Below, piece by piece: positions 1,611 to 37,381 of a DNA stretch of 64,000 nucleotides (positions are counted from its first letter, which is position 1; each line of letters opens with the position of its first letter). A model generated the notes under the pieces. That model saw only the letters and a list, made by a program, of their open reading frames with translations. It was not told where the DNA came from and did no database searches. Made by a program: the position numbers and the translations under genes. Source of the DNA: Opitutaceae bacterium EW11. Its GTDB lineage: Bacteria; Verrucomicrobiota; Verrucomicrobiia; Opitutales; Opitutaceae. The DNA lies in assembly GCA_003054665.1 (NCBI GenBank), contig QAYY01000003.1:620001-684000 (forward strand), given 5' to 3'.

Positions 1611-4600
1611 TTATTCGACGGTCAGCGACTCGACTTCGACGGACGTGCCGGAGAACCACGTCAACTCCACTCGATAGCTCCCCGCGTTGATGCTGGTGCA
1701 GGTGCGCAGGCGCCACATTTGCCAGGAGGCTCCGGTCACCTGCGTCTCTTCCGAACAGAGCACGTTGCCGACGCTATCCATGAGCTCGTAGCGGACGCGT
1801 GCCGCACCGGCTGCCATCGGTCGCAGACGAAGGGCCAGGCGATAGCGGTCGCCTACGCCGACGGTGATGGGCCAGAGTTGCGTTGGGTGCTTGGCGTCGA
1901 GAACCAAGGTCCCGGACGAGTCCGGACGCGCGGCGTAGGTCGTCGCCGGACGTGTGGGACGGACAAATACGCCGTACATGTGCGCCGCCTGCGCCGCTGA
2001 GCTGTGGCCGTTGGGTCCGAGTACAACATGATCGCCCTGCGAAAAGTGGCGGCGGAACAGCTGGAAACGCGCGGTGCCGATCTCGATTTCCCCGCGAACG
2101 GCTTCCCAGTCGGAAAGCCACGCGGGACTTTCGGAGCAGGCGCGGTCGAGAGCCACATAGACGTCCGCGTGATCCGCGAGATCGAACTGCGCCTGCAGCG
2201 CGGACGATCGCTCGTCAGGAGGCGTCACGAGCCAGTCGCTCCCGGTCAGTTCCGCAGGGGCTTGATTCAGCATGGGGCCGGCGGGGCCGTACAGGCGGGC
2301 GCCTCGACGGAGATTTCCAGCCGCATTCCAGACGCGAGGTTCGCGAGAATTGGTCACGACCAGATTTCGGATCGCCTCGGCGGGCGGCAGCGGGCGCGTG
2401 GGAAGAAGCACGACCAACTCCGGCGCTGCGGAAAACGTGACTGTGGCTCCCGCGGCGTGGTGGCTGCGCCACAACGGGACTGAAGTGCCGCCGGCGCCCG
2501 CGGACTTGAGGAACTCGCCGGTGTTTTCCCAGCTGCCACCCTCGGAGGGGCGCACTCCCGGAAGCAACGCGGCGATCAGGTCGGCGTCGCGTTCCAACGT
2601 GAAGGAGAGTGGTCCTGCCGGGCCGCTGCGACGCTGAAGCCAGGCGGCGTTCCTCAATTCTTCGGGAAGCCCGACGAGGGTCTGCGGGGAGTCGGAGTAG
2701 AGCCGGTCGCCGGTGTTCAACCAGCGCTGGAGTGTCGTTTCAGGGTCGGCACGGAGCGCGCTGATCACACCTTCGGAGAATGGCGTTGCCGGCCGAGTGG
2801 CGGGAAGGGGCTGTGCTGCTTTCGGTCGGGCGATGGCGATGGCCGAGATCACGGCCTGGTACGAAGCGACGCGGGGAAATGCGATTTCGAGTTTCCCGTC
2901 GGCGACCTCGGTTTCGAAGATCTTCTTCACGGCGTGCGCGTAGCCGGCCTCTTTCCAGAGATCCAGGTTGCGGGCGACTGTCCGGCCGTTGAGGGCGACG
3001 TCGAACAGCCGCCAACCGGAAGCGTCGGTGTTGCCGCGACCGTACCACGGTTCGACGAAATGGAGCTCCACGCGATACCGGCCGTTGGGGAGATCGAAGC
3101 GGTACGACAGCGCGTTCCGTCCGTAACGAAACGTGCGATACAGCTGCGGATCCCGCGTGCCGGAGATCGGGACGTTGACGCGCCGGACGCTGCCGAGGTC
3201 CGGATCGAGGTCGGGGTAGGAGCGGGCCCAGGAGCGGGATCCCCAGCCGGAACGGGTCGTGTAACTCTGGTCGGCGCTCCAGGTCGCGCCATGGACGTCG
3301 CGGTACTCCGGCCCTCCGCAGTTCACCCGGCGAACGTACTCCCAATCCGGTGCGGCGCCGGTCGTGTCGGAGTCACGGAGCTGTAGTTTTCGAGCGCGGG
3401 GAGCGTCGGGAAGGTGGTGAAGCACGATCGCATCGCCGGCCACGTCCCGGCCGTTCTGGCGGGCGACGGCTCGGAGGAGATTCCAGCGCAGCGCGACGCC
3501 GTCCCAGTGGAAATGTCCGGTGGCATCGCGGCGCCGAACGCCCAGAGAGGCGCCTTCGGCGTCGTTGAAAAGCTCCACTTCGTCGCAATTGGAGTAAGCG
3601 ACAATGCCGTTGACCGTCCCTGGCGCCGTCCATCGATCCGGGGCGGTGGATCCGGCGAGTTCGACCATCGGGGCGGTCGCAGCGGCGACGTTGTGACTGC
3701 GGAAGAGATAATAGGCGTCGAGCGGTTCGCCCCAGAGCGTGAGCAGGCCTTTGTTGTTTGCCGGTCCGAGACGGTCGAGCTGGCTCCAACCATCCGCGAT
3801 CTGTTCGCCCTTCGCTCCGGAGGTTCGCCCCGGGTTGTCGTGGGTCGCGAAAAGCCAGTGGAACTGTCCCGCGACCTCTCCGCGCACGGTGTCGGCCAGG
3901 CGGAGTTTCGTCTCCAGCAGCCGGTTGAAAGGCTCTTCCGGAAAACCGCTGGAGCCGCCCTCGTCGGATTCGTGGAGATCGATGCTCCGCCAAGCGCCGT
4001 ATTCCCCGACGAGTCGCTGTCGGCGAAGATCGTTCGCGTAGGTGGCGGGATCGCCGCCGTAGGTGCCGGTCCAGTTTTGGGGCACGTCCCAGTCGGTTCC
4101 GCTCCCTCCGTTGCAGGTGGTGACCAACCGTTGACTGCCTGCGGTCGGATCCAACTCCCGGATGATCGCGGTCGCGGCGCGGGCGAACTCCGTCGGCAGC
4201 TGGCTCTCGTTCTGGAGTCCCCAAAGCACGAGCGAAGGGCTGTTGCGGCGTTCCTTCACCCAATCGCGCAGGAGCGAGAGGAAGCTCGCCCGAAAATCGT
4301 CGCGGTCGAACCAGATGTGCGCGCCGAACTGCGGCCACCAGGTGAGGCCGTCGGCGTCCCAGTATTCCTGATACCGGAGGTTGTGCGGGTGGTGGGCGTC
4401 GCGGAAGCCGTTGAAGCCGGCGGCCTCGATCTGCCGGACCCGGGCACGGATCTGCTCGGCCGAGAAGGCGTGGCTACCCCCGAGCAGGTTCGGGTATTCG
4501 CAGGTCCCTTGGAGAAACGTCGGTTCTCCGTTGAGAAGGAACGTGCCGCGGCCGGAGCCGTCCGGATTGGGCCACTCGATCCAGCGGAATCCGTACGGCG

Positions 4601-5552
4601 TATCCACGCGGTCGAGCACGGACGATGTCCGCGTATCCACCAGCTCGACGCGCACGGTGTAGAGGTACGGGTCCCGGAGCGCCCACAGCCGCGCCTGGGA
4701 CACGGTCAGGTCCGCTGCGTGGACAACCGCAGAGCCGCCGGCGGGCGCCGTCGACTGCGTCGTCGTCCGCGCCACGGTTGCACCCTCACGATCGAGGAGC
4801 AGGGCGCGAACGACGAAGGTACGAGGCGACGTACCGTGGTTGCTGGCCTCGATCTCCAGGTGTGCGGTGGCGCGGTCTGCGGTGACGTCCCGGTCGTTCC
4901 AGACGTGCACGCCGAAGGGCGCGATGCGCAGCGCATGGGTCACGAGCACGTGCACCGGCCGGAAGATGCCGAATGGCTCCGAGCCCTCGGAAAAACCATA
5001 CGCGCGTTCGCAGCCGCCGCAGACCCATGGCAGGTCGCGGATGCCTTCGGGATGGTCGACGCGGACGGCGAGAACGTTCTTGGCGCCGAATCGCACCGCC
5101 TCCGTTGCATCCAGAGTGAACGTGGTGAGCCCGCCCGCATGGGCGCCGAGCCGCCGGCCATTCAGCCAGACCGTTGCGTAGGAACCCACGCCTTCGAAGA
5201 ACAGGAAGACGCGGCGGTCCGTGTCGGCTGCGCGATCGAGCTTGAAGCGGAGCCGGTACCAAGCGGTGCCGTGGAGATTCCCGTGCTTCGCTTGGCGATA
5301 GCCGGCGTAGGCGTCCCAGTTGTGAGGGACGTCGACCTCGCGCCAGGATCGGTCGTCGAACTCCAAACTCGCGAACCCCGCCGGATCGGCCGAGCCGGAG
5401 GCTGCGACGATTGTGCGCCAGCCGGTGCCGAGCTCGAGGTGCTCGCGAGGACCACCCGTGCCAAGTTCGGGCAACTCGGCGGAAATCCGGGGAACTGCCG
5501 CGGCGAGTTGCCACAGCAGGCAGGCAAGGAGAAATCGGCGAATGTACGCCAC
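1611..5552 (-). CDS. Secreted GH2-family glycoside hydrolase with malectin domain
   Basis: A GTG start at 5552 is chosen because a signal peptide follows directly (AYIRRFLLACLLWQL, cleavage near RISA-E); the frame is open further upstream only inside the neighbouring gene. The 1313-residue protein has a GH2 sugar-binding domain (about 60-205, with DVPHNWDAY), an Ig-like domain (205-325) and a TIM barrel (325-620). The acid/base candidate is Glu449 in LWGLQNES and the nucleophile candidate Glu517 in LVGEYGAW. A malectin-type carbohydrate-binding domain follows (about 738-900, VRRVNCGGPEY), then some 400 residues of unassigned C-terminus. GH2 covers beta-galactosidases, beta-glucuronidases and others, so specificity cannot be read here. 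It is the last gene of the operon that starts at 13272, 71 bases after the propeller gene, and acts outside the cytoplasm. Confidence 0.9.
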   Translation of the reverse strand: MAYIRRFLLACLLWQLAAAVPRISAELPELGTGGPREHLELGTGWRTIVAASGSADPAGFASLEFDDRSWREVDVPHNWDAYAGYRQAKHGNLHGTAWYRLRFKLDRAADTDRRVFLFFEGVGSYATVWLNGRRLGAHAGGLTTFTLDATEAVRFGAKNVLAVRVDHPEGIRDLPWVCGGCERAYGFSEGSEPFGIFRPVHVLVTHALRIAPFGVHVWNDRDVTADRATAHLEIEASNHGTSPRTFVVRALLLDREGATVARTTTQSTAPAGGSAVVHAADLTVSQARLWALRDPYLYTVRVELVDTRTSSVLDRVDTPYGFRWIEWPNPDGSGRGTFLLNGEPTFLQGTCEYPNLLGGSHAFSAEQIRARVRQIEAAGFNGFRDAHHPHNLRYQEYWDADGLTWWPQFGAHIWFDRDDFRASFLSLLRDWVKERRNSPSLVLWGLQNESQLPTEFARAATAIIRELDPTAGSQRLVTTCNGGSGTDWDVPQNWTGTYGGDPATYANDLRRQRLVGEYGAWRSIDLHESDEGGSSGFPEEPFNRLLETKLRLADTVRGEVAGQFHWLFATHDNPGRTSGAKGEQIADGWSQLDRLGPANNKGLLTLWGEPLDAYYLFRSHNVAAATAPMVELAGSTAPDRWTAPGTVNGIVAYSNCDEVELFNDAEGASLGVRRRDATGHFHWDGVALRWNLLRAVARQNGRDVAGDAIVLHHLPDAPRARKLQLRDSDTTGAAPDWEYVRRVNCGGPEYRDVHGATWSADQSYTTRSGWGSRSWARSYPDLDPDLGSVRRVNVPISGTRDPQLYRTFRYGRNALSYRFDLPNGRYRVELHFVEPWYGRGNTDASGWRLFDVALNGRTVARNLDLWKEAGYAHAVKKIFETEVADGKLEIAFPRVASYQAVISAIAIARPKAAQPLPATRPATPFSEGVISALRADPETTLQRWLNTGDRLYSDSPQTLVGLPEELRNAAWLQRRSGPAGPLSFTLERDADLIAALLPGVRPSEGGSWENTGEFLKSAGAGGTSVPLWRSHHAAGATVTFSAAPELVVLLPTRPLPPAEAIRNLVVTNSREPRVWNAAGNLRRGARLYGPAGPMLNQAPAELTGSDWLVTPPDERSSALQAQFDLADHADVYVALDRACSESPAWLSDWEAVRGEIEIGTARFQLFRRHFSQGDHVVLGPNGHSSAAQAAHMYGVFVRPTRPATTYAARPDSSGTLVLDAKHPTQLWPITVGVGDRYRLALRLRPMAAGAARVRYELMDSVGNVLCSEETQVTGASWQMWRLRTCTSINAGSYRVELTWFSGTSVEVESLTVE

Positions 5553-5623
5553 GCGGTGATGGCAGTCCGAGGAATCGAAGGCCGGGGAAGGGGAGACAGG
5601 CGATTCCGCCCGGCCGGAGAGAA

Positions 5624-7408
5624 TCAGGGCTTTGAAGTTATCGAAACGTCGTCGATGAGAAACGCGCAGGCGGGGGTTCTCACGTCTGCGCCGGAAAGCT
5701 CGTGCCCCCCGTCTCCACGTTCGCGATACGCGCCGGTGCGGAACACGAGGCGGTCGATCGACGGCACCAGATCGGTGAAATACGCGGTGCGGGCCAGCGC
5801 CTCCTTGCCGTCGATCCGGAGGACAAACCGGTCCGGGTGTCTCAGCTCGATCTCGAAGGCGAGCCATTGGCCCGTGCGGTACGAACCGGCCGGCATCCAG
5901 ATTCCCTCATGCCGGGCCTCGACGAGGCCGGACTCGGTCAGAGCGATTTGAACCGGACGCTCGCCGCGCGCGCTGGCCAGGTCGATTTCGAGACGCCCCG
6001 ATTCCTGCCGCGGAAGAACGGCGAAGCGGATCACTCCGTCGAGCGTGGAAGGAAAGACGCGGGACGCCTGGGCGTAGTCGTAGGGATCCTCGTCGCGCAG
6101 CTCGAGCGCGTGGCCGTGGCCGTCGCCGGCTTCCACGACCTGCACCGGCGCCCACAGCGGGCGGTAGACGTTCCAGCCGGTCGGCATGGCGCCGAGGGGT
6201 GTCGTGGAAAAATCGGTGTTCACGGAATCGCCGACCGCACCCACGATGGGAACCGGGACGCGGCTCACCCAGATGTCTTCTTTGTTCACGCTGTAGGTTA
6301 GCCACAAAGCTCCGTCGGGCGGCGTGCCGTTGCCTTCGGAGATGCCCCGCACGTATTGCGGGCCCAGGTTTTTGAACTTCCCCGGGAAGCGTTGAACCGG
6401 CAATTCGGCGTGAACCGTCAGAAGACGATCGAACCTCTTTCCATCGTCGCCGGTGATGAGCGCGAGCGGATGCCGGAGCCGGTTCGTCGGGTTGTAGACG
6501 AGCACGAACCGGCCATCGGAAGTTCTCTGGCCCCAGTATTTCGACGAGTTCACGGGGATGTTCTCCATGAAGCCGAGGCGGGTCCACGACTGCCCCTCGT
6601 CGCCGCTGACCGAGTGCTGTGCGTCTTTCGCGACGCCGACGGCCTTGCCGTCGGCACGGTGGAAAATCGAAATCGCTTTCCCCTGAAGCCGGTAGAAGCC
6701 GTCCTCGGCCCGGTCTTCCTCCCACCACTGGGCGGTCACCAGTTTGTTCGCGAGAAGCGCTTCGCAGGCCTTCACTAAACCGGGGTCCGGGGAGGTCGTA
6801 TAGAATGGATACGGTGCGGACGTCTCCGTGAACCTCGAATTCCGGTTGAACCGGAGGAAGTAGATCGGACCGAGCGTGCCGTCGCGCCGTATCTCCCGCA
6901 CGACTCGCCCGAAACCGGAACCGTCGTTGGGCGAGGGCGTTTTCCCGTGGAATCCGGTGGCGAGCAGCCGGTCGTCGGGCGACACGTAGAAGCTCATCCG
7001 TTGGTGCATCACCGAGAGACCGCCGCCCGGGATCGGCATGGCGGGAAACAGGATGCGGGCCGGCGCCCAGTGCACGCCGTCCTCCGAAGTCGTGTACGAC
7101 GTCGCCGTCGGAGCGTCGTGCTCGTTTACGGGAGCGGTGAGAAAATCGAGGTAGAAGCGTCCGTGCCACCATGCGAGCATCGGTGCGTGCGCGTAGGTGT
7201 CGGGCAGACGCTCGGCATGTTCCGAGTGCGTGCGATTCGCCCGGTAGACCTGGATGTTCTGAACACCCACCACCGGCGGCAGACCGCCGTCGGCGCGGGA
7301 GGAGACGGTGTCGTTTCCGGTGTAACTGATTTCTGGCGACGCGGCGGGCGCGACAGCGGTGCAGACGAGAGAGGCGAGAACGAGACCGAAGCGAGCGGAA
7401 AGCGGCAT
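5624..7408 (-). CDS. Secreted sialidase-like beta-propeller protein with C-terminal lectin-like domain
   Basis: A 594-residue protein with a Sec signal peptide (MPLSARFGLVLASLV, cleavage near APAAS). Residues 45-400 repeat short beta-sheet units typical of sialidase/GH43-like propellers: TSEDGVHW, a QHSVSGDEGQSW box, and closing repeats such as LWLTYSVNKEDIW. Residues 410-590 look like a concanavalin/LamG-type sandwich (FEIELRHPDRFVLRIDG). I cannot place it in a numbered GH family. It lies 25 bases after the PdxA2-like gene and 71 before the GH2 gene, in an operon for a keto-acid sugar, so it may release that sugar from the polymer. That role is inference; a propeller hydrolase for arabinose or rhamnose linkages is possible too. 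Confidence 0.75.
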   Translation of the reverse strand: MPLSARFGLVLASLVCTAVAPAASPEISYTGNDTVSSRADGGLPPVVGVQNIQVYRANRTHSEHAERLPDTYAHAPMLAWWHGRFYLDFLTAPVNEHDAPTATSYTTSEDGVHWAPARILFPAMPIPGGGLSVMHQRMSFYVSPDDRLLATGFHGKTPSPNDGSGFGRVVREIRRDGTLGPIYFLRFNRNSRFTETSAPYPFYTTSPDPGLVKACEALLANKLVTAQWWEEDRAEDGFYRLQGKAISIFHRADGKAVGVAKDAQHSVSGDEGQSWTRLGFMENIPVNSSKYWGQRTSDGRFVLVYNPTNRLRHPLALITGDDGKRFDRLLTVHAELPVQRFPGKFKNLGPQYVRGISEGNGTPPDGALWLTYSVNKEDIWVSRVPVPIVGAVGDSVNTDFSTTPLGAMPTGWNVYRPLWAPVQVVEAGDGHGHALELRDEDPYDYAQASRVFPSTLDGVIRFAVLPRQESGRLEIDLASARGERPVQIALTESGLVEARHEGIWMPAGSYRTGQWLAFEIELRHPDRFVLRIDGKEALARTAYFTDLVPSIDRLVFRTGAYRERGDGGHELSGADVRTPACAFLIDDVSITSKP

Positions 7409-7433: not shown

Positions 7434-8447
7434 TCAGGGGGGGGCGACGGTTGGAGCGCGATGAGCGGCCATGACGGCGGCGAGTTTGATCGCTTCGATC
7501 AGGCTGCGCGGGTCGGAGCGGCCGGTTCCGGCCAGGTCGAAATTCGTCCCGTGCTCGACCGAGGTGCGGATGATCGGAAGACCAAGCGTGACGTTCACCC
7601 CGCGCCAGATGCCAAGCATCTTGGCGGCGACGTGGCCCTGGTCGTGGTACATCGCAACCGCCGCGTCGAACTCCCCTTGCAGGGTGCGGAAGAATACGGT
7701 GTCGCCGGGATGCGGTCCGCTGGCGTCGAGTCCTCGGGCGCGAGCCTCCGCGACGGCGGGCTGGATGTAGAGCTGCTCCTCGTTTCCAAACAGACCGCCT
7801 TCGCCGGCGTGCGGGTTGAGTCCGGCGACGGCGAGGCGCGGCTTCTCGATCCCCAACGCCTGCATCGCCTCGTGCGTGAGCTGGAGGACCTGGAGGATGC
7901 GCTCGGGACGGACGCGGTCGATTGCGGTGCGAAGCGAAACGTGCGTCGAGACGTGGCTCACCCGCAGTCGCTCGGCCGCGAGCATCATCGTGGCGCCGGG
8001 AGACTGGCAGAGTTCCGCGAGCAGCCCGGTGTGGCCGTCGTAGTGATAGCCGGCGAGATTGAGCGCCGCCTTGTTGATGGCGGACGTGACGATGCCCGCC
8101 ACCTCGCCTGAGAGAGCGAGCTCCGCGGCGCGTTTCACCGCCTCGTACGCCGCCTTGCCCGCAAGCGGGTCGACCCTGCCCAGTTCCAGGCGACCGAGAT
8201 CCACGTTTTTCAGATCGAGCACGTCGATCTGATCCGCTCGCGCGCCGGCTTCGGACGGACGGTTCACCGTGGCGATTCTCGCCTTGGAGCCGGTGAACGT
8301 GCAGGCGCGGCGAAGGGTTTCGGCGTCGCCCACGACCAAGGGCCGGCACAGCGCGCGAACATCGGGTTCGAGCAGGGCCTTCGAGATGATCTCCGGTCCG
8401 GTGCCGGCGGGATCTCCCAGCGTGATCGCGAGAAGCGGCGGGGTCAT
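7434..8447 (-). CDS. PdxA2-like four-carbon sugar-acid 4-phosphate dehydrogenase
   Basis: A 337-residue cytosolic enzyme of the PdxA family. The N-terminus TLGDPAGTGPEI and the metal-binding histidines in GYHYDGHTG, AMYHDQGHVAAK and TSVEHGTNFD are all present, so it should be active. PdxA itself oxidises 4-hydroxythreonine 4-phosphate in vitamin B6 synthesis. PdxA2 paralogues oxidise and decarboxylate 4-phospho-D-threonate or 4-phospho-D-erythronate to dihydroxyacetone phosphate. Here the start overlaps the end of a DUF1537 kinase gene by 4 bases (ATGA), the pairing known for the catabolic PdxA2 enzymes. I therefore prefer the sugar-acid role over B6 synthesis, with D-threonate 4-phosphate as the likeliest substrate. 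Confidence 0.9.
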   Translation of the reverse strand: MTPPLLAITLGDPAGTGPEIISKALLEPDVRALCRPLVVGDAETLRRACTFTGSKARIATVNRPSEAGARADQIDVLDLKNVDLGRLELGRVDPLAGKAAYEAVKRAAELALSGEVAGIVTSAINKAALNLAGYHYDGHTGLLAELCQSPGATMMLAAERLRVSHVSTHVSLRTAIDRVRPERILQVLQLTHEAMQALGIEKPRLAVAGLNPHAGEGGLFGNEEQLYIQPAVAEARARGLDASGPHPGDTVFFRTLQGEFDAAVAMYHDQGHVAAKMLGIWRGVNVTLGLPIIRTSVEHGTNFDLAGTGRSDPRSLIEAIKLAAVMAAHRAPTVAPP

Positions 8448-9604
8448 GGAGAGGCGGTGCGGCTGGACGGGAAGAGGAGGGGAAGAATGGAGTCGGGCCA
8501 GGGGTAGCTTCCCGGCTTCACGGTGAAAAAGGCCTCACGGGCCGCAACCGGGCGGAGCGAAACGATGCCCAGCGCCCATTCGTGGACGCCTTCGAACGTG
8601 AGCCAGCCGAGACGCCGCGCGATGGATGCCGCGGTGGCGCCGCCCTCGACGACGATGTGGCGGACCGCCCCAGCCTGAAACACGCGGGAGGTGACTTCGG
8701 CGAGCGCGGTGCCGATGTTGGCCGCGGCGCGGGATTCGGGGCTGACAGGACCGTCGACGCACGCGACGGCGCGAGGCTCCCGCTCGAGCCGTTTGAGGAG
8801 GCGCTGACCCCAGTCGTCGATTTCGGAAAGCCGATCGAGCGAGATCCGGTCCACGGATACGTCGCGGCAAAGCCGCTGGCGCTGCGGACCGAACGTCGTG
8901 CCGGAGACGAGCAGCGTGGGCCCCTCGGGAAGCCGATCCGGGGCCCGCGTCGCTTGCGCGGTGTTTCGGGCGGCGAACCAGGCTCCGAAAAACGCGGAGG
9001 AGCCGGACGCAAGCGTATCGGGAGGCACAGCGGCGGCCCAGGCTTGAAGGTCGGCGTCGGACGAGACGTCTCCCACGACGATTCCCTCGGCGGGAAGAGG
9101 CTGACCGAGGCGTGCGGTCGAGACGGGCATGTTTCCCCCGTGCCCGAGAAGGTCGCGCACGTCGGAGGAGCGAGCCGGGTGGTGCGGATCGGTCGCGAAG
9201 CCGGTCTGGTGAAGCGGCTTGCCGTCGATGAGATACCGTCCGTCGCGAACCACGCGGCGCAGCGCCGGATTTCCCGGAATGAGAAGCACGCGGCGCAGTC
9301 CCAAGGCGGACGCGAGCGCCTCGAGTTCTGCGCGCAGCGGTCCACGGAGAACCGAATCGGTTTTTTTGAAAATGGAGGCCGTGGCCGAGGCGCCGAGACT
9401 CCTGCCGATGGCGCTCAGGGAGGTCGTGGCGGAGGCCGGTTGCGCCAGGCGCGTCTCGCTGTCGAAGACGCGCAGGCCGGCATCGGTGCCGGGAAGCTGG
9501 TCCTCGAGCGTGACGATGGCGTTCAGGCCGAAGCGTTGCCCGACGCCCGCGATTTCGCAGGCGCCGGTAAGGTCATCGGCTACGACGGTGATGCTGCCCC
9601 GCAT
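8444..9604 (-). CDS. DUF1537-family four-carbon acid sugar kinase (threonate/erythronate kinase type)
   Basis: The start at 9604 is set by the family N-terminus, ITVVADDLTGACEIAG, right after Met-Arg-Gly; it lies inside the end of the aldolase gene (25-base overlap). The 386-residue protein keeps KKTDSVLRG (about residues 68-76), the N-terminal substrate motif, and the C-terminal glycine-rich nucleotide motif EGGATAASIARRLG near residue 330. DUF1537 proteins phosphorylate D-threonate, L-threonate or D-erythronate at the 4-hydroxyl with ATP. It is slightly shorter than many relatives (about 420). Coupled by overlap to both the aldolase and the PdxA2-like gene, it should catalyse the middle step of that pathway in the cytosol. 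Confidence 0.9.
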   Translation of the reverse strand: MRGSITVVADDLTGACEIAGVGQRFGLNAIVTLEDQLPGTDAGLRVFDSETRLAQPASATTSLSAIGRSLGASATASIFKKTDSVLRGPLRAELEALASALGLRRVLLIPGNPALRRVVRDGRYLIDGKPLHQTGFATDPHHPARSSDVRDLLGHGGNMPVSTARLGQPLPAEGIVVGDVSSDADLQAWAAAVPPDTLASGSSAFFGAWFAARNTAQATRAPDRLPEGPTLLVSGTTFGPQRQRLCRDVSVDRISLDRLSEIDDWGQRLLKRLEREPRAVACVDGPVSPESRAAANIGTALAEVTSRVFQAGAVRHIVVEGGATAASIARRLGWLTFEGVHEWALGIVSLRPVAAREAFFTVKPGSYPWPDSILPLLFPSSRTASP

Positions 9605-10512
9605 GACCCCAGAACGTGGATTGCCTTCAGCTCGGCCACAACCTTCTCGCGGTCTTGTTTCGAGAGCGGTCGAAGCGGAGGGAGCACCGTCGCGTCGCAA
9701 ATGCCCTGTGCGGCGAGAGCGGCCTTGAGCGCGGCGAGATAGCCGCCAAGCCCGCGGCTGCCCTGCAGCACCTGACCGATGGCGTCCAGTTTCCGCTGGA
9801 GTTCTTCCGCCTGGGCCCACTCGCCGGCTGAGGCGTGGTTCCAAAAACGCTCCCAGAGCTCGGGCACGAGGTTGCCCGAACTCGGGATGACACCGTCATA
9901 GCCGGCCCGCATGGCGGTGAGCGATTGGCTGGCGGTGCCCATCAGAATGCTGAACCGGGGGCGACCGCCGAATCGGCGGGCGACTTCCTCGAGACGTCCC
10001 GGCGTGTTCTCCGAATCCTTGAAGCCGACCACGCGCGGCAGCGAACTCAGCTGCTCCACGACGTCGAGCGGGAGGGACATGCGCGTGGTCTGGGGGATGT
10101 TGTAGAGCATCAGAGGGCCGTGCACCGCCTCGTGAAGCCGTTCGAAATAACTCCGCATTTCCTCCGGCTGGATTGGATAGTAGCTGGGCATGTGAGCGAC
10201 CACGGCGGCCGCGCCCAACTTGAGGTAACGGTTTCCGGCGGAGATCGAGTCGGACAGGCTGTTGTCGCCGATCCCCGCATACACCGGCACTCGCTTGGCC
10301 GCGGCGCGGAGGGCGCTGTTCACGACGCGTTCGCGCTGCGAGGTGGGAATGGACGACGTTTCTCCCGTGGTGCCCAGGACGAACACGGACAAGCCGTGGG
10401 CTGCGAGCCGGTCAGCGATCCGTTCGGCGGCGTCGTCGTCGACATCGCCGCCGGGGGTGAACGGAGTGCTCATGGGCACAATGACACCGCGGTGCTTGAG
10501 TGGAGAGTTCAT
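9580..10512 (-). CDS. DapA/N-acetylneuraminate lyase-family class I aldolase
   Basis: A 310-residue (beta/alpha)8 lyase. It shows the LGTTGETSS substrate-carboxylate motif, Tyr in LMLYNIPQTT and the Schiff-base Lys in VVGFKDSENT, in the usual order and spacing. Members cleave or form 2-keto-3-deoxy acids with pyruvate as one partner: dihydrodipicolinate synthase, sialic acid lyase, KDG aldolase and others. It follows the alcohol dehydrogenase gene by one base and overlaps the kinase gene. A lysine-biosynthesis role is unlikely here. Next to a four-carbon acid kinase, the best fit is cleavage of a seven-carbon 2-keto-3-deoxy aldarate into pyruvate plus a four-carbon aldehyde acid (inference). 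Confidence 0.88.
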   Translation of the reverse strand: MNSPLKHRGVIVPMSTPFTPGGDVDDDAAERIADRLAAHGLSVFVLGTTGETSSIPTSQRERVVNSALRAAAKRVPVYAGIGDNSLSDSISAGNRYLKLGAAAVVAHMPSYYPIQPEEMRSYFERLHEAVHGPLMLYNIPQTTRMSLPLDVVEQLSSLPRVVGFKDSENTPGRLEEVARRFGGRPRFSILMGTASQSLTAMRAGYDGVIPSSGNLVPELWERFWNHASAGEWAQAEELQRKLDAIGQVLQGSRGLGGYLAALKAALAAQGICDATVLPPLRPLSKQDREKVVAELKAIHVLGSCGAASPS

Positions 10513-10513
10513 A

Positions 10514-11674
10514 TCAAAGAGCTGAGCGGAAAATGGCTTCGGCGTCGGGTCCGGTGACCTCGCGGACGTTGTTGCGGAGGAGCCGCGTGACCTGGAGCGC
10601 GCCGGAGACGAGGGCCGGGATGTCCTGCTCCGTCACGCCGCAAGCGCGGAGCCCGCGCGGGAGCCGGCACTGCTGCATCAGGTCCTCGATCCGCCGCAAT
10701 CCTGCCTCGGCAAGGGCTTCGTCGGAGCCGGAGGAGTCCGAGGCGCCGAGCGCGCGGGCGATGTCGGCGTAGCGGGCCGGGGCGGCGGGCAGATTGAAAC
10801 GCAGGACGTGCGGGAGGAGCAGCGCGTTGGCGAGGCCGTGCGCGACGTGGAAAACCGAACCCAGCGGATAGGCGAGCGCGTGAACGGCGGCGGTATTCAC
10901 CGGACCGAGACAGAGGCCTCCGTAGAGGCTGCCCTGCGCCAGCGCGGCGCGGGCGCCGAGATCGCCGGGATTCGCCACCGCGACGGGGAGATTGGCGGCA
11001 ATCAGCCGGATTCCCTCGAGTGCGTAGGCGTCGACCAGCGGGTGCGAGTGGAGATTCGCATAGGCCTCGATGCAGTGGACGAGGGCGTCGAGCCCGGTGG
11101 CGGCGGTGAGCGCGGCGGGAGCCGTGACCAGCAGCAGAGGGTCGATGTACGCCGCGTCGGGCACGAGCTGCGGTCCGATCACGCCTTTCTTCAGCCGTGC
11201 CGCCTCGTCGAGGAGAATGGCGTTGGGCGAAACCTCGCTGCCGCTGCCGGAGGTCGTCGGAATGCACGCGAGGTGAATCTTGCGTGCCGGAAGCAGACCG
11301 GTGCCGAAAAACGCGCTCACGGGGTCCTTGCGGCCGGCAAGAACCGCGAGGAGTTTGGCGACGTCCAGCACGCTGCCGCCGCCGCAGCCGATCACGCCGT
11401 CTAGTTTGACCGCGCCGACTTCGGAGCGAATCCGCTCGAAGTCCGCCACCGTGGGTTCGGGCGGGAGGTTGGTGATCGGGATGATTTCGGTTTTGGCGTG
11501 AGCGAACTCTTCCCGGAGTCCTGCCAGGTGTTGCGAGGCGCGGGCGGTGGCGAGGACTGCGACGCGCTTGAGCCCGCGGGCGACGACGTCGGCTCCGCAG
11601 GTGCGGGCCGCGCCGTTGCCGAATACGATCCGCGGCGGCTGAAGCAGTATGATCTGGGGGGGGAGTAGCGTCAT
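10514..11674 (-). CDS. Iron-containing (group III) alcohol dehydrogenase
   Basis: A 386-residue cytosolic oxidoreductase starting at ATG 11674, which overlaps the transporter stop by 4 bases. It carries the GCGGGSVLDVAK nucleotide motif (about residue 95), PTTSGSGSEVSP, and the metal ligands of the C-terminal domain: Asp and His in GLDALVHCIEAY, then His in AVHALAYPLGS and VAHGLANALLLPH. Fe-ADHs reduce or oxidise small aldehydes and alcohols with NAD(P)H. In this operon the likely job is to reduce the aldehyde released by the aldolase to a sugar acid before the kinase step. The alternative is oxidation of an incoming alcohol; sequence alone does not decide direction. Confidence 0.88.
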   Translation of the reverse strand: MTLLPPQIILLQPPRIVFGNGAARTCGADVVARGLKRVAVLATARASQHLAGLREEFAHAKTEIIPITNLPPEPTVADFERIRSEVGAVKLDGVIGCGGGSVLDVAKLLAVLAGRKDPVSAFFGTGLLPARKIHLACIPTTSGSGSEVSPNAILLDEAARLKKGVIGPQLVPDAAYIDPLLLVTAPAALTAATGLDALVHCIEAYANLHSHPLVDAYALEGIRLIAANLPVAVANPGDLGARAALAQGSLYGGLCLGPVNTAAVHALAYPLGSVFHVAHGLANALLLPHVLRFNLPAAPARYADIARALGASDSSGSDEALAEAGLRRIEDLMQQCRLPRGLRACGVTEQDIPALVSGALQVTRLLRNNVREVTGPDAEAIFRSAL

Positions 11675-13272
11675 GGGGCGGTGCGCACGGGTTTCGCCTC
11701 GACGTTTGCAGTGGGGGCGCGAGCGGAGCGGCCCCAGAAGGTGAGCCGATCGACGTTCTCCGGGCGCCAACCTCCGAAGAGGACGCTCACGGCGTATCCG
11801 ACGCCGAAGAGCACGAGGTGTCCGCAAAGACCGATGAGGATCGGGTTCAGCGTGAAATTGAAACCGAGGTCCAGCAGGCGCGTGCCTGGCGAGGTGAGGA
11901 GCCCCCAGGCGGTGAACGCGAGGCACGCCGCGACCCCGCTGTAGCAGCCGAGCCGGGTTGCGCGGCGGGTGAGGAAGCCGAGGAAAAAGAGTCCGAGCGT
12001 TCCGCCCGAGAGAACGGCGGCGACGGTGACGCCGCGCTCCATCACCGAACTCGCTCCGGACTTTGGCGCCATCAGAAGGGCGACCGCGGCGGCGAGTGCG
12101 CCGGCGACCACGACGATCGCGCGGCTGAAAAACATCTGGCGGCCCATCGGGCATTTCGGCCTGAAATGCAGCAGGTAGTCGGTGTTGACCACCGTCGCGA
12201 GGCTGTTGAGGTCCGCGCTGATCGACGACATCGAGGCGGAGAGGATCGCCGCGAGAATCAAACCCACGATGCCGGCCGGCATGTGTTGCCCCACGAAATA
12301 CGGAACGACGTCGTCCGCGAGGGGAGGCGGCGTCTGGCCGGTGCGCTGATAATATCCGTACAGGCAGGCGCCGACGAACATGAAGGTCACGTAAATCGGC
12401 ACGCAGAGCATCGCGTTCCAGAACGCGCCCTGGCTCGCCTCGCGATCGGACCGCGCGATGAGATACCGCTGCACCATGTGCTGGTCCGCGACGTAGCGGC
12501 GCCCCCAGTTGGTGATGTACGCCAGGATGAAAAGCCACTGGGTGGTCTGCGTGGTGTCGAAGAGGGATCGCCAGGAGAGTTCGAAGCTTCCGAGCGAGAA
12601 CCTTCCCGCCTCCCAGGCCGCGGACACGACCGCGCCGGGCGCTCCGGCCTCGGGCGCAAAAACGAGGCGGGCGGCGATCAGAATCGCGCCGCCGATGAAG
12701 ATTCCTCCCTGGACCACGCTCGTCCAGACAACCGCTTCGATGCCCCCGATCATCGTGTAGAGGATGGTGAAGGCGCCGGTCCAGAGGATGACCGACTCCA
12801 GCCGCCAACCCGTCATGATCGTGATCGGAATCGCAGTCGTGAGCAGGGTCACTCCGAGGTCGAAGATGCGATCCGCGATGAAGCCGAGCGAAGAGTAGAA
12901 ACGCCCGCCGAGTCCGAACCGCGCTCCGATATACTCGTAAGCGCTCATCCCGACGGTGTGGCGGTAGAACGGGACAATCCAGCGGGCCACACCGAGCAGC
13001 ACGAGCGGCAGGGTGAGGCTTCCCAGGAGGAGGATGAGCCCTTTCTGGTAAACGGTTGCGGGGTGGCCGACGATCGTGCCGCTGCTGATGAGCGTCGCCA
13101 TCAGCGTCATGGCCACCGCCCAGCCCGGCATCGCGCGGCCCGCGATGAAGTAGTCCTCCGTCGTCTTCTGGCGCCGGGATACGGCGTAGCTCATTCCGGC
13201 GATAGCCAGGCCGTACGCAGCGAGAACGACGTAATCGAGGGGCGAGAGGTGCACGGGGGAGAAAGACGTCAC
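11671..13272 (-). CDS. SSS-family sodium:solute symporter
   Basis: A polytopic membrane protein with about 13 hydrophobic segments, starting with LSPLDYVVLAAYGLAIAG and the RRQKTTEDYFIAGR loop typical of the sodium:solute symporter family. The first Na-site region, VAMTLMATLISSGT, is well kept. I use GTG 13272 as start: the in-frame TTG at 13320 coincides with a TTGACA -35 element and an operator sits between them, so 13320 would lie in the promoter. GTG 13254 is also possible. As the first gene of the keto-acid operon it probably brings in that operon's substrate; SSS members are known for sialic acid, which is itself a 2-keto-3-deoxy acid. Confidence 0.85.
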   Translation of the reverse strand: MTSFSPVHLSPLDYVVLAAYGLAIAGMSYAVSRRQKTTEDYFIAGRAMPGWAVAMTLMATLISSGTIVGHPATVYQKGLILLLGSLTLPLVLLGVARWIVPFYRHTVGMSAYEYIGARFGLGGRFYSSLGFIADRIFDLGVTLLTTAIPITIMTGWRLESVILWTGAFTILYTMIGGIEAVVWTSVVQGGIFIGGAILIAARLVFAPEAGAPGAVVSAAWEAGRFSLGSFELSWRSLFDTTQTTQWLFILAYITNWGRRYVADQHMVQRYLIARSDREASQGAFWNAMLCVPIYVTFMFVGACLYGYYQRTGQTPPPLADDVVPYFVGQHMPAGIVGLILAAILSASMSSISADLNSLATVVNTDYLLHFRPKCPMGRQMFFSRAIVVVAGALAAAVALLMAPKSGASSVMERGVTVAAVLSGGTLGLFFLGFLTRRATRLGCYSGVAACLAFTAWGLLTSPGTRLLDLGFNFTLNPILIGLCGHLVLFGVGYAVSVLFGGWRPENVDRLTFWGRSARAPTANVEAKPVRTAP

Positions 13273-13297
13273 CCGGTCGGCGACGGCGAGCAGCGAA

Positions 13298-13333
13298 ATT
13301 TCATGAAATACGTTTGTCAACCTGTTATTTCAT
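13298..13333 (-). promoter_or_regulatory. Promoter and LacI-type operator of the SSS operon
   Basis: On the minus strand TTGACA (13320-13315) is followed by the perfect 12-base palindrome ATTTCATGAAAT (13309-13298), placed in the -35/-10 spacer where a repressor would block polymerase. A further half-site, ATGAAATAA (13333-13325), lies just upstream of the -35. The same half-site words occur in front of the LacI gene. A good -10 is not visible at 17 bases (TTCGCT), so the exact start of transcription is uncertain. Confidence 0.6.
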
Positions 13334-13512: not shown

Positions 13513-14655
13513 CTATAGCTGTACGACGGAGCCGCGCTCCACCAGCGTCGGCTCGACCAGGATCTGCACCGCCAGGGGCTCCTGCGGATTGGCGATTCTC
13601 CAGAGGAGCTGGTCGACCGCGCGGCGTCCGATGGCCTCGGCGTGCACGTCGACGGTGGTGAGCCCCGGCTGGAGATTCATGAGCAGCGATTCCTCATTGT
13701 TGCAGGAGATCACGCTGACGTGTTTGCCCACCTCGTATCCGCTGCGTTCGAGGGAGGCGTAGAGCTGCACGGCGCTGCGGTCGGAGGGGACGAAGATGGC
13801 GGTGGGGCGGGTCTTGGCGGGAATGCCGGCCCAGTCCTGGGTGAGCTTGTCGACCTTGTCCTGGAGCGTGGTGGCGGGGAGCGGCCACTCGATGTGCTCA
13901 GGGGTGTCGGCCTCGATGCAGACGACCTCGAGCTGGAGCCGGCCCGCGGCGGAGAGGAAGGCCTGCTTCACCTTTTCGAACTGGGTCTGGCCCGGCTTCG
14001 GATTGATGAACGCGATCCGACGGTGGCCCCGGGCGTGGAGGTGGTCCGCCACGAGCCAGCCGGCGACGTCGGTGTCGAAATTGCAGTGGTCGCCCTTGGC
14101 GTGGGGGAGGCGGCCCATCAGCCAGACGTGGGGCAGGCTGTAGAGCTTTTGCAGCAGCTCGTTCTGCGGCTCGGTCGGCAGATCGCCCTGGTTGGGCCCC
14201 TTGAGGATCACGCCCTTGACCTGGCCTTCGGAGATGAACGGCGGAATCCGGTCGCCCCGCGGGATGTTCGCGAGCAGCAGGCTGCGGTCCTGGGCGGAGA
14301 GGGCGCTCTCGATGCCCTGTAGTGCGGCGCTGACTACGGGAAGCTGGACCAGCGTGTCCTCCATCCCGAAGCAGACCACACCGATGTCTCCCGCACGGCT
14401 CGCATGGCTGCCGTCGGCCGGCCGCACGGCCGCCCGGCGCTGCCGGATTCGTCGATAGTGCAGCCGATGGGCGGCCTGCCACACCTTCTCCTGGATTTCC
14501 GGGTGGACGTCCGGGTGGTTGTTGAGAACGCGGGAAACGGTTCCGACGGCGACTTTCGCCGCCTTGGCAACGTCGGTGATCGTCACTTTGCCCTTGGAGG
14601 TCATGGCGTTGAGCGAGGGGTTACGCCGCTGATTGGAGAGGGAAATTCGGGCCAT
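13513..14655 (-). CDS. LacI-family transcriptional regulator
   Basis: A 380-residue repressor. The N-terminal helix-turn-helix and hinge are clear at about residues 23-75 (VTITDVAKAAKVAVGTVSRVLNN, with the usual LHYRR hinge region). A periplasmic-binding-like sensor domain follows (about 90-375, ending VEPTLVERGSV). ATG 14655 is used; ATG 14604 would also keep the whole DNA-binding domain. It sits between the TonB receptor gene (divergent) and the SSS operon (same strand, downstream). Palindromes built from TGAAAT/ATTTCA flank it on both sides, so it probably controls itself, the receptor and the SSS operon. The inducer would be a sugar or sugar acid from the polymer. Confidence 0.93.
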   Translation of the reverse strand: MARISLSNQRRNPSLNAMTSKGKVTITDVAKAAKVAVGTVSRVLNNHPDVHPEIQEKVWQAAHRLHYRRIRQRRAAVRPADGSHASRAGDIGVVCFGMEDTLVQLPVVSAALQGIESALSAQDRSLLLANIPRGDRIPPFISEGQVKGVILKGPNQGDLPTEPQNELLQKLYSLPHVWLMGRLPHAKGDHCNFDTDVAGWLVADHLHARGHRRIAFINPKPGQTQFEKVKQAFLSAAGRLQLEVVCIEADTPEHIEWPLPATTLQDKVDKLTQDWAGIPAKTRPTAIFVPSDRSAVQLYASLERSGYEVGKHVSVISCNNEESLLMNLQPGLTTVDVHAEAIGRRAVDQLLWRIANPQEPLAVQILVEPTLVERGSVVQL

Positions 14656-14725
14656 TGAAATAAATTATTTGACAAGTTAGTTCATGAAACTACTTCTGGT
14701 CAATCGTTTATTTCATATGAAATAA
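14656..14725. promoter_or_regulatory. Divergent promoter region with operators between lacI-type gene and TonB receptor gene
   Basis: The 18-base perfect palindrome TTATTTCATATGAAATAA spans 14708-14725. A second dyad, TTCATGAA, lies at 14681-14688, and TGAAATAA/TTATTT half-sites at 14656-14670. On the plus strand TTGACA (14669-14674) precedes the TTCATGAA dyad by 6 bases, nearly the same arrangement as at the SSS promoter. On the minus strand TTGACC (14705-14700) stands 17 bases from CTAACT, a candidate promoter for the LacI gene. These look like targets of the adjacent LacI protein; the -10 elements are weak. Confidence 0.65.
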
Positions 14726-14778: not shown

Positions 14779-17700
14779 ATGTCATTCCGTTTGCCCTTCG
14801 TTTCGGGAGTTTCTTCGCCTGGCGTGTTCCGACTCGCTCTGCGTCCGTGCCCGTCCGGATTGGAAAAGCGCAGTCGAAACGCCGCGGCCTCCGTCTCTCT
14901 TGCCGCCGCCCTGGTTTCGCCTTCGGCGATCGCGGCGGGCGTCGCGATCTGCGTCTTGGCGACGTCCGCGAGTGCGGCGCAGGCACCGACGCCCGCCGCG
15001 GACAAGGGCGGGATTACAGGTCGGGTATTGAACCGGGACTCGGGCCGCTATCTCAACAACGCCCGAGTGACGGTGGCCGGTACGGACCGCGAGGCGTTCA
15101 CGGACGACTCCGGATCCTTCCGCCTCGGCGAGCTTCCGCCGGGCGACTACACGGTGAACGTCTTCTACACCGGGCTTCCGCAGCAAACGGCGTCGGTGCA
15201 CGTCGAAGCCGGGCAGGTCGCGCGCCAGGATTTTCGCGTTGGCGCGAGCAAGACGACGGCTGACGACGATACGGTCGTCCTGACCGAGTTCGTGGTGGCG
15301 GCAAACCGCGAATACAATGCGGCCGCCATCGCCCTCAACGAGCAGCGATTCTCCGCCAACCTGAAGAACGTCGTTTCGACGGACGCCTTCGGCGCGATCA
15401 ACCAGGGCAACATCGGCGAGTTTCTGAAGCATGTCCCGGGTGTGACCATCGAATACAACGGCCAGTCCGCCTCGGGCATTCAGGTGCGCGGCTTCAATTC
15501 GAACTTCACCGCGGTCACCGTGGACGGCGGCCAGATGGCGAGCGCGTTCAACGCCACCAGCTCCTCGAACTACACGCGCGCCTTCAGCCTCGAGCAGTCG
15601 TCGATCAACAACTACTCGCGCATCGAAGTGGTGAAGCTGCCCACGCCCGATATGGCGGCCAACCTGCTCGGAGGCGCCGTGAATCTGGTGAGCAAGAGCG
15701 CCTTCGAGTACGCCCGGCCCCAGCTCTTTTTCTCGACGTACATCAATATGAATACGGACGAGATGAACTTTGACCGGACGCCCGGCCCTCTCAACGAGCG
15801 CACCTACAAGGCCCGTCCGTCGTTCGACGCCACCTACGTGCTGCCGGTGAACGACAAGTTCGGCGTCGTGGTGACGGGGGCGAGCGCCAACCTCTACACG
15901 CGGACGCTGCGCACCGTTCCGACCCGCAAGTGGACCGGCGGCGGCGCCACCGTCGACAATCCGCAGACCACCGCGTTTGCCGGCGATACCTCTCCGAAAC
16001 TGGAGCAACGCACCTCGGGCAGCGTGAAGCTCGATTGGAAGCCGCTGCCGGGGCATCGGTTCTCCCTTTCCGCCCAGGCGAACTCCATTCACTCGACCAC
16101 CCGGACGCAGCGACTCTCGTACAATGCGGCGACCCTGCAGGCCGGCGGCTGGGGCGAGACCTTCTCCAAGGGCGCAGCGACGAGTTCGGCCAATGCCAGC
16201 CAAAGCGTGACGGTGGACGATCGCAACGGCCTCAGCCAGGGCGTGCTCTTGAGCTACGACTTCAAGAACGAGGATTGGGAGATCGATGCCGCCGCCAGCG
16301 GCTCGACGTCGTGGTTCAAGAATCGCGATACGGACAAGGGGTTCTTCCGAAACTACAACGCCCGTGCCCTGGCGGTGAACCGGATCGACTTCTCCGACAT
16401 CGACAACGGCACGGGAACTCCCGGAAAGATCGAGCTCTACAACTCCGCCAACGCGCTCGTGGACGCGACCAGCCTCGCGGGCTACACGGTGCAGAACGTG
16501 CAGAGCAACCCGTCCGACTCACGCGACGCGGTCGACGAGGAGCGGCTCTCGGTGACACGCCACTTCAACTCCCTGCCGTTCGACTTCGCTCTCAAGGCCG
16601 GCGGCGCTCGGAACTCGCTCCAGCGCGACATCGACTACGGGTATAACCAGTACAACTACGTCGGCCCCGACGGCGCGGCGAACACGGCGGACGACGTGGG
16701 CACGCCGTTCCTGGACCCCAACTACACCTCGTTCAGCCCGGGCTACAGCTACCCGGCGGCGCAGTGGGCCAACCTCTGGACGATGTATCAGGCGTTCAAG
16801 GACCATCCGTCGTACTTCACCCAGACCAACTCACAGCAGATCGACCGGATCAAGAACGAGGCTTCCCGATCGCCGATCATGAAGGAGACCGTCACCGCCG
16901 GGTATCTCATGGCCGATTCGCGAGTCTGGAAAAACCGCATCCGCCTCGTGACCGGCGTCCGGTATGAACTCACCGAGGACGACGGCCGGGGTTATTCCCA
17001 GGACACTTCGTCGGTGTATCAGAAGGATGGCAACGGCAACCTGGTCCGCGGTTCCGACGGCAAATACGTCCGGCGCCCCGAGGCCGGTGCGGCCGGATCG
17101 GCCCAGGAGGCGGCGCTCATCTATCAACGCCGCGGCGTGCGCAACAAACGCGACTACAGCGGCTATTATCCCAGCGCGCATCTGACCGGCAACGTCACCG
17201 ACGACCTGCTGGTTCGCTTCGGCTACGCGCGGACCCTCGGCCGGCCGCCGATCTCGGACATCGTGCCCAACATCTTCGTTTCTCCCCCGAGCGATCCGAC
17301 GACGAATCCCGTGGGAACGATCCAGTCGTCGAACACGAGCCTGAAGCCGTGGCAGGCGGACAACTATGACCTCTCGGTCGAGTATTACCTGCCGCACAAC
17401 GGCGTGGTTTCCGCGGGTGTGTTCCGCAAGGACATCAGCGACTTCTTCGGCAACGTGAACATCACGGCGACGGAGGAGTTGCTGGACGCCCTCGGGCTCT
17501 CCCACGAGTACATCGGCTACAACTACAAGACCCGCATCAATGCGGGGGACGCGCGGATCACCGGCTACGAGTTGAACTACCAGCAGTCGCTCGAGGTTCT
17601 CGGCAACTGGGCGAAGCCGTTTGGACTTTTTGCCAACTACACGAAGCTGAAGCTGGACGGCAACCAGTCGGCGAACTTCAGCAACTTCATCCCGGAGACG

Positions 17701-18015: not shown

Positions 18016-18105
18016 TGCCGCAATCGGATGGTTGTCCGGCTGCTCGAGGTCGTCCGAAAGGCGAAACGATGCGCACCATCGCCGCTTTTCGGACGGTTTC
18101 CAGAC

Positions 18106-18156
18106 GAGGGGTCCCGGGGCAGCGGCAACAACGCCCGCTCCGGGACGCCTCTTTTT
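18106..18156 (+). terminator. Rho-independent terminator after the TonB receptor gene
   Basis: GAGGGGTCCCGG (18106-18117) pairs with CCGGGACGCCTC (18140-18151) with a single mismatch, and five T follow at 18152-18156. It separates the receptor from the downstream glycosidase genes. The remaining bases of the 18016-18239 gap show no gene. Confidence 0.8.
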
Positions 18157-18239
18157 CTGATGGTAATCTCCTGTGCCGTGAGACGTCCTTCCTAAGTCGG
18201 CTCTTCGCTACGGTCCTATTCGTGGCCCCCACTCACCGA

Positions 18240-26793: not shown

Positions 26794-26815
26794 CCGCCGT
26801 CCGTTTTTCCCACGT

Positions 26816-27877: not shown

Positions 27878-27896
27878 CGAGAACTCCATTACGCCG

Positions 27897-34000: not shown

Positions 34001-34099
34001 TTGGACTCCCTCGTTTCCCCGAAGGTTGCGCGGAGCCCGCACGCGGATGCGGCTGCGACACGCTCCCGGGCGCGAGATAACCCCACCGCTTTTCCCCAA

Positions 34100-35524: not shown

Positions 35525-35526
35525 GC

Positions 35527-37364: not shown

Positions 37365-37381
37365 AAGCATCCCCAGACGCC

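Follow-up and report, generated by a model that had tools for sequence, protein, structure and literature searches.

A candidate operon for catabolism of the rhamnogalacturonan II sugar acid Dha via D-threonate in Opitutaceae bacterium EW11

We analysed a stretch of 64,000 nucleotides from Opitutaceae bacterium EW11 (contig QAYY01000003.1, positions 620,001 to 684,000), hereafter the window, and in it an operon that may break down 3-deoxy-D-lyxo-2-heptulosaric acid (Dha), a sugar acid of rhamnogalacturonan II (RG-II). Pfam matches and coordinates confirmed what a first-pass annotation of this DNA had reported, namely that a sodium:solute symporter (SSS), an iron-containing alcohol dehydrogenase (Fe-ADH), a DapA-type aldolase of the dihydrodipicolinate synthase (DHDPS) family, a DUF1537 kinase and a PdxA2-like dehydrogenase are encoded by consecutive, mostly overlapping genes. 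These five genes and the two that follow them are listed here in the direction of transcription.

11671-13320, minus strand: SSS sodium:solute symporter that would import Dha; its start codon is uncertain (PF00474; TIGR00813 above cut-off)
10514-11674, minus strand: Fe-ADH, predicted reductase of 2,3-dihydroxy-4-oxobutanoate (PF00465, PF25137)
9580-10512, minus strand: DHDPS-family class I aldolase, predicted Dha aldolase (PF00701)
8444-9604, minus strand: DUF1537 four-carbon acid sugar kinase, predicted to phosphorylate D-threonate (PF07005, 110.5 bits, scanned from 4 codons upstream)
7434-8447, minus strand: PdxA2-type dehydrogenase, predicted 4-phospho-D-threonate dehydrogenase (PF04166)
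5624-7408, minus strand: relative of glycoside hydrolase (GH) family 143, predicted Dha hydrolase, with a signal-peptide-like N-terminus by eye only (PF24067, 283.7 bits)
1611-5867, minus strand: GH2-family enzyme with malectin and DUF4982 domains, start uncertain (1611-5648 scanned)

The first five genes overlap or touch at their ends and form one operon: 4-base overlaps link SSS to ADH and kinase to PdxA, the aldolase and kinase genes share 25 bases, and the aldolase start and the ADH stop are one base apart. For the kinase, the ATG at 9604 is most likely the start, and not the TTG of a longer frame; the PF17042 score of this protein lies just below the cut-off of that model. Beginning 25 bases past PdxA, the gene for the GH143 relative is the sixth of the operon; it is followed by the GH2/malectin gene, homologues of which (46-57% identity) occur in 7 of 80 GH143 loci. 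These loci come from a scan with the GH143 protein and are the best 80 of 214 relatives, many of them stopping at contig ends. A search of the genome for extra copies (6.4 Mb in 45 contigs) returned a second PdxA gene and a second, higher-scoring DHDPS gene elsewhere, and the operon copies therefore look surplus to vitamin B6 and lysine synthesis. No second DUF1537 gene was found in this genome, where the operon kinase is the only PF07005 match.

The product of 5624-7408 aligned with residues 25-575 of BT1020 (5mqr) at a phmmer E value of 7e-116, and its score with PF24067, the BT_1020-like propeller model, compares with a cut-off of 27. Across 81 GH143 sequences many Tyr, Glu and Arg residues are invariant, such as Y352, E377 and R312, among which the Tyr-Glu nucleophile pair and other catalytic residues may lie. 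BT1020 combines a beta-L-arabinofuranosidase with a Dha hydrolase (GH143) in a single protein, and the two together dismantle chain D of RG-II (PMC6811678; this and the other papers are cited from excerpts of their text). Relatives of both halves are present in the window, among further predicted genes of RG-II degradation.

18015-19823, plus strand: GH142 relative, the beta-L-arabinofuranosidase half of BT1020 (phmmer to residues 618-1099 of 5mqr, E 2e-178)
14779-18015, plus strand: TonB-dependent receptor, divergent from a LacI gene (PF00593, PF07715)
22833-24470: apiosidase-like gene
27897, 42594 and 48632: GH78, three genes
30200 and 51928: GH95, two genes
38317: GH127
54668: GH106
58217: GH42

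The gene for the GH142 relative directly follows that for the TonB receptor. By its set of RG-II glycosidase families and this receptor, the window is an RG-II degradation locus. For an Opitutaceae genome, the list of RG-II enzymes includes GH143 (PMC12613999), and GH143 is reported to co-occur with GH137, 138, 139 and 142 (PMC7922503); the excerpts of these two papers make no mention of Dha breakdown.

The gene content suggests that the operon would release, import and degrade the Dha of RG-II via D-threonate to pyruvate and dihydroxyacetone phosphate (DHAP), a reading that we consider highly probable. The GH142 enzyme would take off L-arabinofuranose and so expose the Dha of chain D, which the GH143 enzyme would free outside the cytoplasm and the SSS carrier would import. 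The DHDPS-type aldolase is predicted to cleave Dha between C3 and C4 by a retro-aldol reaction, giving pyruvate and 2,3-dihydroxy-4-oxobutanoate, whose aldehyde the Fe-ADH would reduce to yield D-threonate; the DUF1537 kinase would convert this to 4-phospho-D-threonate, and the PdxA2 dehydrogenase would oxidise and decarboxylate the latter to DHAP and CO2. Because the ADH would consume one NAD(P)H and PdxA2 give one back, the route to pyruvate and DHAP would be redox-neutral at a cost of one ATP. We infer every reaction step in EW11, together with the direction of the ADH, the substrate of the transporter and the ligand of the regulator, from what the sequence holds directly: gene families, gene order, kinship to GH143 and co-occurrence. 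Fischer bookkeeping, into which we entered the D-lyxo arrangement that we take Dha to have, led to D-threonate and so bore out the earlier derivation of this acid from the C5 and C6 centres of Dha; a D-xylo C7 2-keto-3-deoxy-aldarate yields the same acid. Growth on D-threonate is supported by D-threonate kinase and 4-phospho-D-threonate dehydrogenase, which lead to DHAP (PMC10079672).

The DUF1537 kinase gene adjoins that of a PdxA2-type dehydrogenase, the gene arrangement of the D-threonate pathway (DtnK/PdxA2), and D-threonate kinase is its best NCBIfam model at 94.7 bits. A role in D-apionate/3-oxo-isoapionate metabolism was rejected for this kinase, which scored 18 bits on the corresponding model. 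In phmmer comparisons the dehydrogenase matched 4jqp (5e-89), 2hi1 (9e-88) and the D-threonate 4-phosphate dehydrogenase 6e85 (6e-87) better than the PdxA structure 1ps7 (4e-59). The NCBIfam matches of the Fe-ADH, all under cut-off, were to ErcA, lactaldehyde reductase, 4-hydroxybutyrate dehydrogenase and others. Its residues D196, H200, H265 and H279 (Asp, His, His, His), which we take from the positions in FucO to be the metal ligands, are invariant in all 14 aligned ADHs from cassettes of this kind.

The window aldolase contains the Schiff-base Lys, the catalytic Tyr and the GxxGE motif of DHDPS/NAL class I aldolases, as Lys165, Tyr137 and GTTGE. We built a maximum-likelihood tree of 63 aldolases, into which NanA was entered without its first 26 residues and from which YjhH was left out. 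Clade I of this tree unites 33 cassette aldolases from Verrucomicrobiota and Bacteroidota/Ignavibacteriota (support 96/95), with none of the 17 non-cassette rows inside, and nine Bacillota cassette aldolases form a separate clade (100/98) that is closer to DapA and YagE (94/87). Since the cassette aldolases fall into two separate clades, the tree suggests that an aldolase was recruited independently twice beside the same kinase-dehydrogenase pair. One aldolase that lies beside GH143-GH142 (L072) was rejected as a cassette member, for it sits in another paralogue clade and the cassette aldolase of that genome is L113. Within clade I, K165, Y137, G47, T48, G50 and E51 are found in 33 of 33 rows and T49 in 32; Arg173 is likewise invariant (33/33) and has a putative active-site role. 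Asp191 and Glu192, two residues with roles in NanA, correspond to Ala194 and Ser195 in the window aldolase, and at these positions the residues recorded for clade I include neither Asp nor Glu. The predicted cleavage product has the same C4 aldehyde-acid skeleton as aspartate semialdehyde, the partner of DapA. Arg138 of E. coli DHDPS is important for binding aspartate semialdehyde (PMC3188589), and its equivalent is kept in 9 of 9 Bacillota cassette aldolases.

The best 80 GH143 loci span Verrucomicrobiota, Bacteroidota, Bacillota, Ignavibacteriota, Planctomycetes and others. Aldolase, kinase, PdxA and Fe-ADH all lie within the locus in 18 of them (14 Verrucomicrobiota, 4 Bacteroidota), 12 of which also hold an SSS homologue, and in 13 of the 14 Verrucomicrobiota loci PdxA2 stands immediately before GH143 with no gene between. 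The gene set recurs with GH143 in samples of three phyla, and its order varies by lineage. Most Opitutales loci have SSS-ADH-aldolase-kinase-PdxA-GH143; Spirosoma, Siphonobacter and Melioribacter show ADH-aldolase-PdxA-kinase-SSS, Echinicola has aldolase-SSS-ADH-PdxA-kinase, and three Bacillota genomes (G536, G609 and G639) have kinase-PdxA-aldolase, in the first of which an apiosidase gene comes next. Flanks were scanned for one Bacillota cassette of the GH143 carriers, L182, and there an apiosidase gene stands directly after the cassette. Forty GH143 genomes were reached via loci and mostly picked since the locus lacked a full cassette (they include the genomes of L075 and L004, through L058); 28 of these have a DUF1537 gene. 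All four enzymes were present in 12 of 20 regions read around DUF1537 genes of GH143 genomes, among them Paenibacillus, an uncultured Clostridia genome, Melioribacter and Marinoscillum; one region (L129) is the contig of L004 again.

We then compared genomes with and without GH143, drawn evenly from three phyla: Verrucomicrobiota, the phylum of Siphonobacter (G035; Bacteroidota) and the phylum of Paenibacillus (G015; Bacillota). GH143 was called above 100 bits with PF24067 and weaker matches counted as absent, so that one genome (G050) counts as lacking it at 86.8 bits, though its 1000-residue frame scores 394 with a purpose-built profile. Among Verrucomicrobiota, 10 of 240 genomes carry GH143, and the kinase with a nearby aldolase was found in 9 of these 10 vs none of the other 230; the stretches matched by GH143 and by the kinase are 1.1-4.5 kb from one another. 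The cluster was defined here by the positions of matches to profiles A2 (E<=1e-10) and A1 (E<=1e-40), with at most 7 or 9 first-look candidates scored per genome; PdxA and ADH were read in four of the nine cluster genomes (G000, G131, G159 and G208), and the aldolase match of G208 crosses one stop codon. In the Bacteroidota sample, where the kinase was searched at E<=1e-5 and the neighbours were read in all six genomes with a match, GH143 is present in 11 of 198 genomes and the cluster in 3 of these 11 vs 2 of 187. The cluster of G310 is about 640 kb from GH143, G459 has a weak kinase only and no cluster, and G025 and G034 had also been reached earlier via the GH143 scan.

Among Bacillota, 4 of 199 genomes carry GH143, and the cluster (DUF1537, PdxA, DapA) occurs in all four vs 2 of 195 without GH143. 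In G536 and G639 it shares a contig with GH143, at a distance of 26-28 kb, and in G015 and G609 the two are on different contigs. A DUF1537 match is present in 42 of the 195 GH143-free genomes. We read the surroundings of at least one kinase gene in all 42, mostly 8-9 kb on each side with some stretches ended by the contig, and left out second kinase genes of G632, G623 and G519. The stretch read holds no DHDPS gene in 40 of the 42, and in 35 of these 40 it holds PdxA. No other control is as telling: the kinase is commonly paired with PdxA, and the aldolase joins the two where GH143 exists. In the pooled samples the cluster was found in 16 of 25 GH143 genomes vs 4 of 612 GH143-free genomes (Fisher 3e-22), or in 13 of 22 vs 4 of 612 minus the three centre genomes (Fisher 3e-18), values that overstate independence, as the sampled genomes are related and kinship was left uncorrected. 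Profiles A1 and A2 contain the window and several sampled genomes, which match by construction. Together, the GH143 relative adjoining in the operon, the RG-II locus and the tracking of GH143 by the cluster in three phyla support the original proposal that the operon may degrade Dha via D-threonate.

Several observations weigh against this interpretation. The kinase reached 94.7 bits, over its N-terminal part only, vs a cut-off of 450 for the NCBIfam D-threonate kinase model, and PdxA reached 330.7 bits vs 583 for D-threonate 4-phosphate dehydrogenase, passing the general pdxA model; because these curated cut-offs were missed, we describe the two enzymes as working like DtnK/PdxA2 and do not file them as members. 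The Arg138 equivalent is lost in clade I aldolases (T in 30 of 33), where the invariant Arg173 may take over its task, and the regions read for three Bacillota sets (L180, L182 and L184) gave no Fe-ADH match. Since the profiles used for searching derive from cassettes linked to GH143, they favour the detection of that very association. The cluster is absent from 8 of the 11 sampled Bacteroidota GH143 genomes; in one of these eight, G034, a DUF1537 gene of another type occurs about 32 kb from GH143, with neither aldolase nor PdxA adjoining. One Verrucomicrobiota genome (G198) has GH143 without a cassette-type kinase. A PF07005 match is absent from 12 of the 40 GH143 genomes reached via loci; GH143 genomes reached in this way that show no DUF1537 match include five Opitutae (G002, G007, G008, G010 and G011). 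GH143 genomes that lack the cluster or the kinase may leave Dha unused, degrade it by other means or have incomplete assemblies.

In four sampled genomes the cluster occurs with no GH143, which likewise weighs against this reading. L139 (G351, in the Bacteroidota sample) holds a full cassette with SSS and a GntP permease, and upstream of these lie a TonB receptor, a BNR_2/FGE protein and a sulfatase; the cassette of L140 adjoins GH127/GH43-like genes; and those of the Bacillota L226 (G650) and L207 (G648) have a 2-hydroxyacid dehydrogenase and a PrpR-type regulator as neighbours, L226 also a TctA transporter. Because of these neighbours, the route may serve another acid in the L226 and L207 genomes. 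Further sources of Dha are the scales of prasinophytes and the theca of Tetraselmis (PMC10762512), and algal-scale Dha could, as a guess, explain L139. The claim that a C7 2-keto-3-deoxy aldarate such as Dha is the only simple way to join these enzyme families was thus too strong, since a D-xylo aldarate gives the same acid and the cluster occurs in these four genomes without GH143. Two further observations concern related kinases. The Flavobacterium genomes with GH143, L250 (G034) and L091 (G030), contain a distant DUF1537 type without adjoining aldolase or PdxA (in G030, 1.5 kb on each side was read). In L142 (G139), which belongs to the family of the window and to a genome without a strong GH143 match, a cassette-type DUF1537 (325 bits) and PdxA have no nearby aldolase match.

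An ordinary operon for use of D-threonate (or D-erythronate), with the aldolase acting on a separate keto acid such as 2-keto-3-deoxygluconate, would accord with the Bacillota kinase-dehydrogenase pairs that stand alone (40 of 42 GH143-free genomes without DHDPS nearby, 35 of the 40 with PdxA). We regard it as very unlikely, because the aldolase joins the pair almost only with GH143 (4/4 vs 2/195 in Bacillota) and the presence of GH143 in the operon would go unexplained. It is also unlikely, if a little less so, that the cassette serves another ulosonic or acidic sugar of RG-II, such as the 3-deoxy-D-manno-oct-2-ulosonic acid (Kdo) of chain C or aceric acid, and that GH143 adjoins only as a fellow gene of the locus. 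The window does have glycosidase families for several RG-II chains, and a major facilitator superfamily (MFS) carrier, a BNR_2 (sialidase-like) protein and GH78 occur together at 25462-30614. However, cleavage of Kdo gives D-arabinose, which needs neither a C4-acid kinase nor PdxA2, and GH143 comes directly after PdxA2 in 13 of 14 Verrucomicrobiota four-enzyme loci.

A broader possibility, which we hold tentatively and well below the Dha route itself, is that the cassette degrades 2-keto-3-deoxy-aldarates of several sources (RG-II Dha, green-algal-scale Dha and related free acids), with GH143 as one feeder. The GH143-free copies with a TonB receptor, BNR_2 and sulfatase (L139), with GH127/GH43-like genes (L140) or with a TctA transporter (L226) point this way, as does the Dha of prasinophyte scales (PMC10762512), whereas the rarity of GH143-free clusters (4 of 612 sampled genomes) speaks against it. 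For this window, it agrees with degradation of Dha from RG-II.

Regulation of the operon would probably be local, and three features bear on it.

13513-14655, minus strand: LacI-family regulator, probable local regulator (PF00356, PF13377)
14708-14725: candidate operator for LacI, TTATTTCATATGAAATAA, a perfect palindrome of 18 bp that lies between the regulator gene and the TonB receptor gene transcribed away from it
13325-13333: half-site TTATTTCAT in front of the symporter

The LacI gene lies upstream of the operon, and five of the 80 GH143 loci hold homologues that are 56-60% identical to it. The palindrome matches once in the window, with 0 expected, and was also picked up among the repeats (D2/D8); related palindromes (at least 14 of 18 positions) occur in 4 of 10 other loci scanned (L003, L007, L009 and L042). 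The palindrome is likely an operator, through which the LacI repressor probably controls the operon.

Other parts of the window also merit mention. A DUF6298 protein (19505-22825; PF19815, 576 bits) is a candidate RG-II enzyme because its homologues occur in 27 of the 80 GH143 loci, in Verrucomicrobiota and Bacteroidota. At 34001-38884 there is a row of a fucose-isomerase-like protein, a transketolase split into two genes and an FGGY kinase, which together with the apiosidase-like gene we take to resemble a transketolase-type route for D-apiose; the Bacillota cassette L182 likewise has a split transketolase upstream. The row of MFS carrier, BNR_2 protein and GH78 could serve chain C (Rha-Kdo). 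A 474-residue open frame between the GH127 and GH78 genes (40961-42385) is coding-like in third-position GC and without Pfam or NCBIfam match, and GlcD-like and GlcF-like oxidase subunits at 45596-48336 are perhaps for glycolate or lactate from sugar breakdown.

The release of Dha is known; its fate in bacteria was not found in the literature searched. Searches on Dha or heptulosaric acid catabolism, on this gene set and on Verrucomicrobia with RG-II, which did not cover key RG-II and DUF1537 papers, found no bacterial route of Dha breakdown and so agree, provisionally, with the earlier statement that none has been described. Known enzyme families appear to be joined into a new pathway, which we call undescribed on a provisional basis. 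We see an even chance that this is a complete new bacterial Dha route that arose at least twice, with two DHDPS branches (Verrucomicrobiota/Bacteroidota and Bacillota) having become Dha aldolases and the GH143-free copies extending to green-algal-scale Dha. If true, the operon would give the whole catabolic route of a sugar, a new aldolase activity and a candidate transporter, as well as a gene signature telling which microbes consume RG-II chain D or algal-scale Dha. In plants, Dha has so far been found in RG-II only, and Dha standards are lacking (PMC12168206); with standards so scarce, the operon could become a tool, its aldolase making Dha in reverse.

The proposed system resembles several known ones. 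Both halves of Bacteroides thetaiotaomicron BT1020 (GH142-GH143, 5mqr) have clear sequence kin in the window; there they are two separate genes, and that for GH143 shares its operon with genes of cytoplasmic enzymes, an arrangement that the excerpts of PMC6811678 do not report for BT1020. With the D-threonate pathway (DtnK/PdxA2) the operon shares two families, their adjacent genes and the same predicted chemistry; it differs in its scores under the curated cut-offs and in that D-threonate is predicted to arise inside the pathway, as an intermediate that the operon's own aldolase and reductase form from a C7 ulosarate. The window aldolase shares its family and catalytic Lys and Tyr with E. coli DapA, whose aldehyde partner is likewise a C4 aldehyde acid. 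Unlike DapA, it is predicted to cleave rather than condense, clade I is separate in the tree, and the EW11 genome has another, higher-scoring DHDPS gene. In its logic the system resembles the sialic acid (nan) systems, which likewise combine a propeller hydrolase (sialidase), an importer and a pyruvate aldolase of the DHDPS superfamily (NanA) acting on an ulosonic acid. It departs from them in an aldolase without the Asp191/Glu192 of NanA and in its downstream enzymes, a C4-acid kinase and PdxA2 in place of the ManNAc enzymes.

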